This document shows, piece after piece, positions 28,873 through 30,802 of a stretch of DNA of 64,000 nt. The notes beneath the pieces are model-generated. The model saw only the letters and a program-made list of their open reading frames with translations, was not told where the DNA came from and ran no database searches. The stretch is from an uncultured Alphaproteobacteria bacterium (GTDB taxonomy: Bacteria; Pseudomonadota; Alphaproteobacteria; RF32; CAG-239), in contig CALYAX010000003.1 in the NCBI GenBank assembly GCA_944393665.1, positions 1 to 64,000 of the forward strand, written 5' to 3'. The position numbers were made by a program, and so were the translations under genes. Each line of letters begins with the position of its first letter. Position 1 is the first letter of the stretch.

Positions 28873-29109
28873 TTAGTTTTTCATCACTTTGGAGATGATC
28901 GCGCCGAGGTCAGCCCCGAGATAATCGGCAATGATTATCAATAGATACATTGTCGGTTTCAGCTTGTGTCTTTCCAGATATGAGATTGTACTATGTGACA
29001 AGCCCGTATCTTTTGCCAGCCGATAAGGAGTAACTTTTTTTTCCCTGCGTATTTCCGCCAGAACGTCAACGATATTATCGCTTATTTGTTGAGCTTCTAT
29101 CTTTTTCAT
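28873..29109 (-). CDS. XRE-type helix-turn-helix regulator (first of tandem pair)
   Basis: The 78-residue product is a stand-alone HTH_3 domain: LAEIRREKKVTPYRLAKDTGLSHSTISYLERHKLKPTMYLL shows helix 2 (TPYRLAKDTG) and the recognition helix (SHSTISYLE). Such small Cro/C1-type proteins regulate phage, plasmid or toxin-antitoxin genes, and often themselves. It lies 9 bp downstream of a second XRE gene on the same strand, so the two are co-transcribed. Confidence 0.88.
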   Translation of the reverse strand: MKKIEAQQISDNIVDVLAEIRREKKVTPYRLAKDTGLSHSTISYLERHKLKPTMYLLIIIADYLGADLGAIISKVMKN

Positions 29110-29118
29110 AATAATTGC

Positions 29119-29355
29119 TTACATTTTCATTACTTTATCAACTAACTTATGTATATCAATTTTAAGTATTTTAGCAATAGAAATAACCTCACCAAAATCA
29201 AGACGGCGATTACCATTCTCATATTTACCCACAAAGGAAGGTGTGCGTCCCAATATTTCTGATAACTTACGTTGAGATAAACCAATGTTTTCTCTGGCAG
29301 AAGTTAAGATTCCCAAAACATATTGATATTTTGAATCGTAAAGGGACTTCGTCAT
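29119..29355 (-). CDS. XRE-type helix-turn-helix regulator (second of tandem pair)
   Basis: Also 78 residues: ILTSARENIGLSQRKLSEILGRTPSFVGKYENGNRRLDFGEVISIAKIL is a canonical Cro/C1 HTH with recognition helix RTPSFVGKYENG. It is the upstream gene of the tandem pair. Its start region faces the promoter of the structured RNA candidate at 29476, so it may control that promoter; this is inference from position. Confidence 0.9.
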   Translation of the reverse strand: MTKSLYDSKYQYVLGILTSARENIGLSQRKLSEILGRTPSFVGKYENGNRRLDFGEVISIAKILKIDIHKLVDKVMKM

Positions 29356-29442: not shown

Positions 29443-29469
29443 TAGACAAAGCTTTACTTTTTATATAAT
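29443..29469 (+). promoter_or_regulatory. Promoter candidate for the first structured RNA
   Basis: TAGACA at 29443-29448 and a perfect TATAAT at 29464-29469, with a short 15-bp spacer. Transcription would start near 29476, just before a perfect TAGATT/AATCTA hairpin (29482-29497). Confidence 0.5.
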
Positions 29470-29475
29470 ATGAAT

Positions 29476-29760
29476 CCAAAATAGATTCATTAATCTATAA
29501 GTATTATTAATAAAACTGCGCAAGCAGTACTTACGGGCTTAATTTATGGTCCGGGTGCAATGACAGGCACTTATGTATCACAGCAGAGTTTGGATATGAC
29601 TCTGTAACTTAGTTATTGACTCTTGAAGCAAAAACTGAGACCATATCCCCGGTACCTGACACGGCCGGGGGCCCACCTTAACTTTTCAAAGTGCAGTGGG
29701 CAGGTACTGTGATGCCTGACTGTCACCCCCGGCCGCCTTTTTCAAAAATGGCGGTTTTTG
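29476..29760 (+). ncRNA. Candidate structured RNA, copy 1
   Basis: No coding frame fits here, yet the sequence is rich in perfect stems. 5' hairpins are TAGATT/AATCTA, ACTGC-GCAA-GCAGT and CAGAGT/ACTCTG, with a long-range TATGGTC/GACCATA pairing (29545-29551 with 29639-29645). The core has P1 GGCCGGGG/CCCCGGCC (29663-29670 with 29727-29734), P2 GCCCAC/GTGGGC (29671-29676 with 29696-29701) and P3 AGG/CCT (29702-29717). It ends in a terminator, CCGCC/GGCGG (29733-29754) with TTTTT. The second copy shares the core with a compensatory change in P2. I do not recognise the class. Confidence 0.65.
29733..29760 (+). terminator. Terminator of structured RNA copy 1
   Basis: CCGCC (29733-29737) pairs with GGCGG (29750-29754), followed by TTTTTG. 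The 5' arm overlaps the 3' arm of P1, so the two pairings compete at the edge. Confidence 0.75.
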
Positions 29761-29779
29761 TATGCCCGAGTCGCATTAT

Positions 29780-30010
29780 TAACGCAGCTGGTCTGCAAAG
29801 TTTCGGCTAAAGAATGCCGGGTGAAAATCGTCAGGAAACAACCCCTCAATCATGGTGCTTGTAATTGTCCGGTTGTTTGTTTTTGGAATACTGGTACCGG
29901 CTTTTAACGGCCGGGGGCCCGCCTAAAATCTCAGAATGCAGCGGGCGCAGGTTTCTAAGGTTCCCTGATGACTAGCCCCGGCCGCCTTTTTTCAAATCGG
30001 CGGTTTTCTT
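29780..30010 (+). ncRNA. Candidate structured RNA, copy 2
   Basis: The core repeats that of copy 1 at a 246-bp offset: P1 GGCCGGGG/CCCCGGCC (29909-29916 with 29976-29983), P2 GCCCGC/GCGGGC (29917-29922 with 29941-29946), P3 CAGG/CCTG (29948-29951 with 29964-29967), preceded in both by GGTACC 12-16 bp upstream. The P2 loop shares TGCAG at its 3' end with copy 1. The 5' part differs from copy 1 but has its own stem, AAACAACC/GGTTGTTT (29836-29843 with 29871-29878). The 5' boundary is a guess; it may be made by processing of a longer transcript. Confidence 0.6.
29982..30010 (+). terminator. Terminator of structured RNA copy 2
   Basis: CCGCC (29982-29986) pairs with GGCGG (29999-30003), followed by TTTTCTTT. 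Confidence 0.7.
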
Positions 30011-30802
30011 TAGCTTCACTTCTCAACATCAGCCGCCGGAAAAGGAATTTTATTACCGCACTAATCCTAGGGAAACTCAGAAATTCTTTTTAATTTGGAC
30101 GTCCGGCGGCGCCTTGTTGACATAACATCGTTACACCGCGTTTGTCCGGTTTTTTCCGCCGGGTCAGTCGTTCGATTCCCCCTGCGTTGTTTCCTAGTCC
30201 GTTTCAACGCCAGGGCCCGGCGATTTGCCCCGGCGCCTCTTTTCGTCACCCCTCGAGAACGTCAGTTCTCGTCAAGGGGTCTATGGCAGATGCCTTGACG
30301 GGCTTCGCCCGAGGCATGACAGAGGAAGGAACGCGCAACCCCTTTCGTCACCGCTCCGGGTCCGGGTCAAAGCCAACCGCAAAACGTGAAAAACTTCTGC
30401 GTGTGGGATAAAAAATTTAAAATAGGAATAAAATCACAACTAAGGAGAAGAAAAATTTTGAAATAACAGCTTATGATAATATTTGTCCACTATATACAAC
30501 CTCGGGTAATACTTTTAAAATAAGAATTTTAAGAGCAAATAAAACTTATGGTCGCATATGCCGGCTTGTGGATAAGTTTGCGAAAAAACGCTGATTTTGC
30601 CGTCAAATGACCGCTTTAGGCAAAAGTGGCGCCGGGGTTTTCGATTCGTTTTTAAACGACTCGGACGAGTCGGTGCTGCCGATTCGCTGCCCGGACGCGA
30701 GAAAAATGTTTCCTCTTTTATGTGACAAAAAATGTCTAATACACGCCTAAATCAAATTAAATGTGCCCTTCGGGCCTGAGAAATAACCATTTGGAGATAA
30801 CA
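30011..30802. other. 790-bp gene-poor stretch with palindromes
   Basis: No convincing coding frame. It holds CCGGCGG/CCGCCGG inverted copies (30103-30109 with 30156-30162), the palindromic element at 30243-30330, an A/T-rich segment (30410-30550), and a single perfect DnaA-box-like TGTGGATAA (30568-30576). AAGGAGAAG at about 30443 is followed only by a frame of two codons, which looks like a remnant. Confidence 0.5.
30243..30330. repeat. REP-like palindromic element
   Basis: Two adjacent hairpins: ACCCCT-CGAGAAC-GTCA-GTTCTCG-TCA-AGGGGT (30248-30280) and CGGGC-TTCG-CCCG within GCC...GGC (about 30292-30317). The form resembles short palindromic repeats that are scattered between genes in many Proteobacteria. 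Only one copy is in the window. Confidence 0.5.

Follow-up and report, generated by a model that had tools for sequence, protein, structure and literature searches.

The catalogued family nearest to the RNA described here, by sequence and shape, is the C4 antisense RNA (RF01695), a three-way junction made of a closing stem and two hairpins with a loop complementary to a related RNA segment, as known from phages P1 and P7. C4 and its c4-a1b1 target motif have been catalogued (PMC2864571), and the 1990 study of C4 by Citron and Schuster is used here as far as PMC8201110 recounts it. Closest by logic are the IncI/IncB repZ leader pseudoknot with its Inc RNA, and attenuators in general. In the IncI/IncB repZ leader, a long-range loop pairing in cis switches expression on and an Inc RNA with the same address switches it off in trans, and the addresses diverge between incompatible replicons. 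Classical attenuators and transcriptional riboswitches place mutually exclusive helices upstream of an intrinsic terminator and a gene, an arrangement that recurs here in helices F and P1. T-box leaders, whose address reads an external tRNA, are numerous in a genome, fold alike and differ from copy to copy in the sequence used for recognition; the leaders described below resemble them in their number, common fold and copy-specific recognition sequence.

The locus lies in a window of 64,000 nucleotides, the whole stretch of DNA that was analysed. Judged by its sequence and predicted structure, one element in the window (unit 1, or copy 1) is a member of a previously uncatalogued family of ~250-nt RNA leaders found mostly in gut Alphaproteobacteria. 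The reading that we favour, and to which we give slightly better than even chances, is that unit 1 belongs to a family of 5' UTR leaders that act by transcription attenuation, are addressed copy by copy through a long-range helix, K, and are subject to competition in trans by terminated leaders. The parts of the locus are as follows.

28873-29109, minus strand: second XRE/HTH_3 gene (Pfam HTH_3, 1.8e-8); similar genes are divergent to the RNA in genomes G009 and G024
29119-29355, minus strand: XRE/HTH_3 gene divergent from the RNA (Pfam HTH_3, 6.4e-10); genome G089 has a small XRE gene of this kind upstream of the RNA
29464-29469, plus strand: TATAAT, a -10-like promoter candidate located in the sequence, as proposed in the preliminary description
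about 29515-29754, plus strand: unit 1, a full member of the RNA family, with no Rfam match
29515-29528, plus strand: P0 hairpin ACTGC/GCAGT, the 5' end of the element; homologues start with a hairpin too
29535-29552, plus strand: helix A, GGGCTT (29535-29540) with TGGTCC (29547-29552); compensatory changes at 6/6 pairs in 72 homologues
29553-29572, plus strand: helix B, GGGTGC (29553-29558) with GCACTT (29567-29572); compensatory changes at 4/5 pairs
29577-29583, plus strand: 5' strand of K (the private address), ATCACAG, immediately 5' of helix C; pairs with 29707-29713
29584-29604, plus strand: helix C, CAGAGT (29584-29589) with ACTCTG (29599-29604); compensatory changes at 5/6 pairs
29592-29597, plus strand: 5' strand of E, GGATAT, within the loop of helix C (a pseudoknot); mostly invariant GGATATA/TATATCC
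29608-29639, plus strand: helix D, CTTAGTT (29608-29614) with AACTGAG (29633-29639); compensatory changes at 6/6 pairs
29643-29648, plus strand: 3' strand of E, ATATCC, located in the sequence and overlapping the 5' strand of F
29647-29670, plus strand: helix F, CCCCGG (29647-29652) with CCGGGG (29665-29670), one strand in common with P1; 99% of cells paired
29663-29734, plus strand: P1, GGCCGGGG (29663-29670) with CCCCGGCC (29727-29734), the proposed antiterminator; mean 9.7 bp in 90 elements
29671-29701, plus strand: P2 of unit 1, GCCCAC (29671-29676) with GTGGGC (29696-29701), containing the compensatory pair A29675-T29697; P2 covaries in the set from genome G017
29702-29717, plus strand: P3 hairpin AGG/CCT, the loop of which is the site of the 3' strand of K
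29707-29713, plus strand: 3' strand of K, CTGTGAT, in the P3 loop
29733-29760, plus strand: intrinsic terminator, CCGCC (29733-29737)/GGCGG (29750-29754) and T-run; its 5' arm overlaps the 3' strand of P1
29763-29905, plus strand: 5' half of unit 2, non-homologous to the family core
29909-30007, plus strand: unit 2, 3' domain only: P1 29909-29916/29976-29983, P2 29917-29922/29941-29946, P3 about 29948-29967, terminator 29982-30003

The preliminary description had seen here two tandem copies of a structured plus-strand RNA with a three-stem core. P1, P2, the TATAAT promoter candidate and the direct repeats, spaced 246-249, lie where it had placed them, and each of the two copies has GGTACC and the T-run terminator. 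The compensatory change in P2 is real, A29675-T29697 in copy 1 corresponding to G29921-C29942 in copy 2, where GCCCGC (29917-29922) pairs with GCGGGC (29941-29946). One such pair across two copies is weak evidence alone, and it is the alignment of homologues that settles the structure. The three stems P1-P3 are there, but they account for no more than the 3' part of copy 1; conservation across the family is highest in the 5' half. Similarly, copy 1 is complete, but copy 2 is not its equal, having the 3' domain only and no match to the core. A structured RNA on the plus strand also stands, although not as a free-standing RNA: in homologues it is a 5' leader just before a gene. Helix K, the most unusual feature of the family, was absent from that description.

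Unit 1 (29476-29762) folds with a z score of -4.94 relative to 200 dinucleotide shuffles. A second AT-rich stretch, closer to P0, is an equally possible promoter candidate for it. The element is intact, has no ORF with a Shine-Dalgarno sequence and ATG (SD+ATG) directly 3', and is followed by the partial copy, unit 2. A scan of the window against Rfam gave a single match at threshold, a tRNA, and sub-threshold matches only in the 29476-30010 region; that no known RNA class is recognisable here, as had been thought, is borne out in that no Rfam family reaches its threshold in the region. The L17-Actino-Proteobacteria leader (RF03132) scored 32.0 bits, over 24 nt of the F hairpin alone, its gathering score being 34.9 bits, and was rejected, as were the other weak matches, all below threshold. 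RNase P RNA and tmRNA were also rejected at the locus; the RNase P RNA is on contig C36, and ARAGORN called only a tRNA-Thr in the window. A group I intron on the minus strand, where GATATAGTCC resembles an S element, was rejected because the G-U pairs, the terminator and the gene starts fit the plus strand.

The homology of unit 2 to the family is restricted to the F/P1-P2-P3-terminator part. With filters off, no match to the family core was found in its 5' half, the core model recovering the F hairpin alone (4.6 bits), and the best internal candidate for K has p=0.12; a full second copy is thus rejected. Unit 2 alone folds no better than shuffles (z = -0.40). Its 5' half contains a segment (29849-29861) complementary over 13 bp, several of them G-U, to the P3 region of unit 1 (29701-29713), with p=0.005 against dinucleotide shuffles as the best of three comparisons. 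Unit 2 may be either a remnant or a partner of unit 1. Further 3', window positions 30095-30400 are GC-rich with short inverted repeats and a stretch resembling a tRNA T-arm, gttcgattcccc, near 30171; tRNA calling there returned none.

The family was delimited by sequence and by structure. A DNA search with unit 1 across 126 genomes of the same bacterial family found its 5' half in three others, each with a small divergent XRE gene nearby. A covariance model of four sequences (R1) matched 47/107 genomes of that family, in 14/16 genera, and a refined model of 72 sequences (R2) matched 121/153 genomes of the order and, at class level, also families f74, f33, f4 and f23. Copies are often numerous: at E <= 0.1 there are 9 in the window's genome, 63 in G028, 58 in G017, 52 in G044 and 40 in G083. 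In an independent DNA pattern scan of named genomes, one per species, the matches listed are almost only from Alphaproteobacteria and unclassified proteobacteria, and many of those listed, Azospirillum sp. CAG:239 among them, come from animal guts. The family was not described in the literature searched, which is not proof that no description exists.

Some copies occur in unusual settings. Three tandem copies lie within about 730 bases at positions 201-931 of L248 (G028:C3:57335-59722), at least one of them without most of P2/P3 and hence without the 3' strand of K. In G024, the end of contig C18 (L011) and the start of contig C14 (L020) stop at one and the same position within the RNA, which is what two copies with identical 5' halves should produce. 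A contig of a Candidatus Zixiibacteriota MAG, outside the Alphaproteobacteria, gives a weak match to the family model (L144, 4642-4764, 24.9 bits), which may reflect genuine relatedness, contamination by a foreign contig, or chance. A phage or plasmid origin was rejected, there being no plasmid match and one unverified faecal 'phage' scaffold only. This scaffold, a 'Bacteriophage sp.' from human faeces (L322; MT837687.1, 1444-1593), has a copy of the RNA that scores 100.3 bits with R2, together with two XRE genes and, downstream, an ORF resembling that of G089, and may be a bacterial contig or an integrated element. A viral contig with the DNA pattern reached a marginal 15.3 bits with the core model, over the F hairpin.

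Covarying homologues, the check called for when the RNA was first proposed, do exist. Over 72 homologues, helices A, B, C, D and F are paired in 96% of cells, with double changes at 24/29 pairs; double-change cells in these helices number 431, compared with 116 in shuffles and at most 62 when the pairing is slid. Helix F is present in all 90 annotated elements, with a mean of 8.7 bp. Pseudoknot E shows a few double changes, but some members of the family have it only weakly or lack it. In unit 1 and its homologues the 3' domain is a three-way junction of P1, P2 and P3, followed by the terminator. When the annotated structure with K was checked in 15 paralogues from a single genome, 99.2% of cells were paired. 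An internal loop in P2 is conserved, its AUGUNCA and UAAAG motifs being found together in 100/179 elements, and is possibly a tertiary contact or a binding site. Elements of the majority type, such as L064 (3167-3250), have it as GCGUAUGUUCAG ... UUUAAAGGC; it is absent from the window's copy.

The order of helices suggests a switch. F and P1 use one strand in 90/90 annotated elements, and E overlaps F. A terminator was found in 85/90 elements, and in 81 of these 85 the 3' strand of P1 runs 3-4 nt into its 5' arm. This degree of sharing would weaken the terminator, without necessarily abolishing it. Successive helices with shared bases (E/F, F/P1, P1/terminator) are well supported by the sequences as the layout of a transcription attenuator, and attenuation of the downstream gene is strongly suggested by the mutually exclusive helices together with an intrinsic terminator directly before a gene (unit 1 itself has no such ORF). 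In folding energies that leave out pseudoknots and kinetics, the mean advantage of F with the terminator over P1 is 5.4 kcal/mol, and the contribution of K would be about -9.4, so that K is big enough to tip the balance toward P1. In unit 1 itself the two states are about equal in energy.

Helix K is a long-range helix of 7-9 bp between a segment just 5' of helix C and the P3 loop. The pairing threshold is reached with an element's own 3' domain in 94% of 94 elements, compared with 13% for mismatched pairs, and the result is the same in G028, G083, G017 and other families of the class. Among the 15 paralogues mentioned above, every cell of K is paired (100%), with double changes at 8/8 pairs. 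For unit 1, where the longest run with the P3 loop is 9 pairs, K alone is marginal (p=0.046), and its support therefore comes from the family.

What sets K apart is how it changes. It is unique in 15/15 copies in one genome and 40/40 in another, and 19 distinct forms exist among 20 in a third. Only four within-genome pairs exceed 90% identity; their mismatch is 0.37-0.43 in K compared with 0.04-0.08 in P2, loops and the rest, and K is shared in 0/4 of these pairs but in 10/34 between-genome pairs above the same identity. For two copies on one contig, mismatches number 10/16 in K and 12/269 elsewhere (p=5e-9). Change on both strands of K thus outpaces that in all other parts of the element, even the unpaired ones; P2 diversifies too in older paralogues, later than K. 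A simple structural helix is not expected to diverge so, and the rapid change suggests selection for private addresses. Since K cross-complementarity within genomes shows no clear deficit relative to that between genomes, avoidance of cross-pairing is judged from the speed of K change. The idea that K acts as an antisense against the downstream gene's ribosome-binding site was rejected, as an element's own start-codon region gave no signal and behaved the same as those of other genes.

The position of the RNA relative to genes is regular. An SD+ATG ORF of at least 40 codons lies in a fixed interval 3' of the element in 151/189 cases, compared with 11% of random positions, and starts at a median of 131 nt after the core. 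The genes are mostly for pilin-like proteins, autotransporters, lipoproteins or glycans, and the products include pilin-like prepilins, autotransporters (PF03797), lipoproteins, OMP barrels (PF13505) and BspA-type LRR proteins, as well as exported PLD and SNase nucleases, glycosyltransferases, RgpF and an acyltransferase. At three G017 loci (L311, L312, L316), the downstream prepilin ORFs appear to contain an inserted repeat (such as LLPESGADAP) between the start and a GRSMIEMLG motif. A smaller subfamily, which includes the window's copy, is linked to small XRE/HTH proteins up- and downstream, and suggests a module of XRE gene, RNA and small ORF. In the window, two small adjoining XRE genes (28873-29355) are divergent to the RNA, with similar ones upstream in G089, G009, G024 and L322.

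A mechanism that would join these features is as follows. A 5' domain of hairpins A, B, C and D and pseudoknot E would precede a switch of helices competing for bases. The OFF state would consist of F and the terminator, and the ON state of E with a P1/P2/P3 junction locked by K, in which P1 would act as antiterminator and permit read-through. K would favour P1 in cis and at the same time serve as the address of each copy. Leader RNAs that have terminated would compete, by address, for the K strand of the nascent transcript of their own gene, so that an address-matched leader in trans would cause termination at that gene and not at other copies. Since K is scrambled in paralogues shortly after they duplicate, yet stays self-complementary in each, pairing between different leaders is probably what selection avoids. 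We infer the trans step, the input signal and the direction of the switch, and the trans action by address is a tentative proposal, more likely to fail than to hold. That tens of surface and secretion genes per genome carry the same attenuator, each switched by leader RNAs with its own K, through addressing by RNA only, is possible but doubtful. A regulatory or antisense-like role, raised in the preliminary description, is supported as one option.

The strongest competitor, though a rather unlikely one, is a riboswitch, in which the 5' pseudoknot domain or the P2 internal loop would bind a small molecule shared across the regulon, such as a second messenger linked to surface behaviour, and set F against P1, with K a structural closing helix free of sequence constraint. 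The leader position, the overlap with the terminator, the common theme of surface, secreted and glycan genes and the conserved AUGUNCA and UAAAG motifs of P2 would all follow naturally from it. It does not explain why K differs by about 40% in paralogues otherwise more than 90% identical when P2 and the unpaired regions do not; moreover, the P2 motif is missing from the window's copy and no Rfam riboswitch matches. The same divergence of private addresses is left unexplained if an antiterminator or other RNA-binding protein acts on the conserved 5' domain and lets transcription continue into surface operons, much as RfaH or LoaP systems do. Specialised antiterminators serve gene classes such as glycan synthesis, pili and autotransporters, which the genes here resemble, but we consider this reading quite improbable.

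A C4-type antisense RNA, in which the released 3' three-way junction would use its loops to silence a target, like the C4 RNAs of phages P1 and P7, would make sense of a P3-like loop privately complementary to a segment of the same transcript, and one homologue (L057) matches RF01695 over the whole model with 38.2 bits (E 5.9e-6 in a 351-nt scan). That best score is nevertheless under the gathering score of 45 bits, the best in the element's own genome is 15.6 bits and 27 other loci gave none; K strands are not complementary to the downstream start-codon region, and almost no copies are in phages or plasmids. Such an RNA is therefore very unlikely. Finally, a DNA-level repeat or mobile element with inverted repeats that merely resemble RNA helices, an idea invited by the high copy number and by near-identical, tandem and truncated copies, is scarcely credible given paired columns that covary and contain many G-U pairs on one strand only, the fixed distance on that strand to a terminator and a gene start, and private, compensated K helices.

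The favoured reading, an attenuator addressed by K, can now be set against the described systems. By score and by target position the RNA falls outside the C4 family: the partner of the loop lies in the 5' domain of the same leader, and a C4-type target at the start codon was not seen. The new family is also chromosomal and of high copy number, stands before surface genes, and has its own terminator and a pseudoknotted 5' domain. Unlike the IncI/IncB repZ system, it consists of chromosomal leaders in tens of copies that are linked to a terminator, whereas repZ control concerns how a replication gene is translated; a separate antisense gene was not seen here. It differs from classical attenuators and riboswitches in that each copy has a private self-complementary address, with no known ligand or leader peptide, and from T-box leaders in that the partner recognised lies in the same RNA; no Rfam T-box model matches. 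We know of no catalogued leader RNA with a private self-complementary address. Thus, the building blocks (attenuation, pseudoknots, antisense loops) are known, and what is new is the way they are combined and addressed; with all attenuators taken as a single kind, this is a strongly deviating variant.

The family would be a new structured bacterial RNA class, abundant in gut Alphaproteobacteria and placed before many adhesin, pilin, autotransporter and glycan genes of these bacteria, and is probably important to the management of the cell surface in this mostly uncultured group. With K, nature offers tens of different long-range pairings built on a single scaffold, and this address makes the avoidance of cross-talk among near-identical regulatory RNAs directly testable. 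If addressing by RNA only is true, the surface repertoire would be silenced and expressed one gene at a time, in a manner like antigenic variation, with neither DNA rearrangement nor dedicated regulators.
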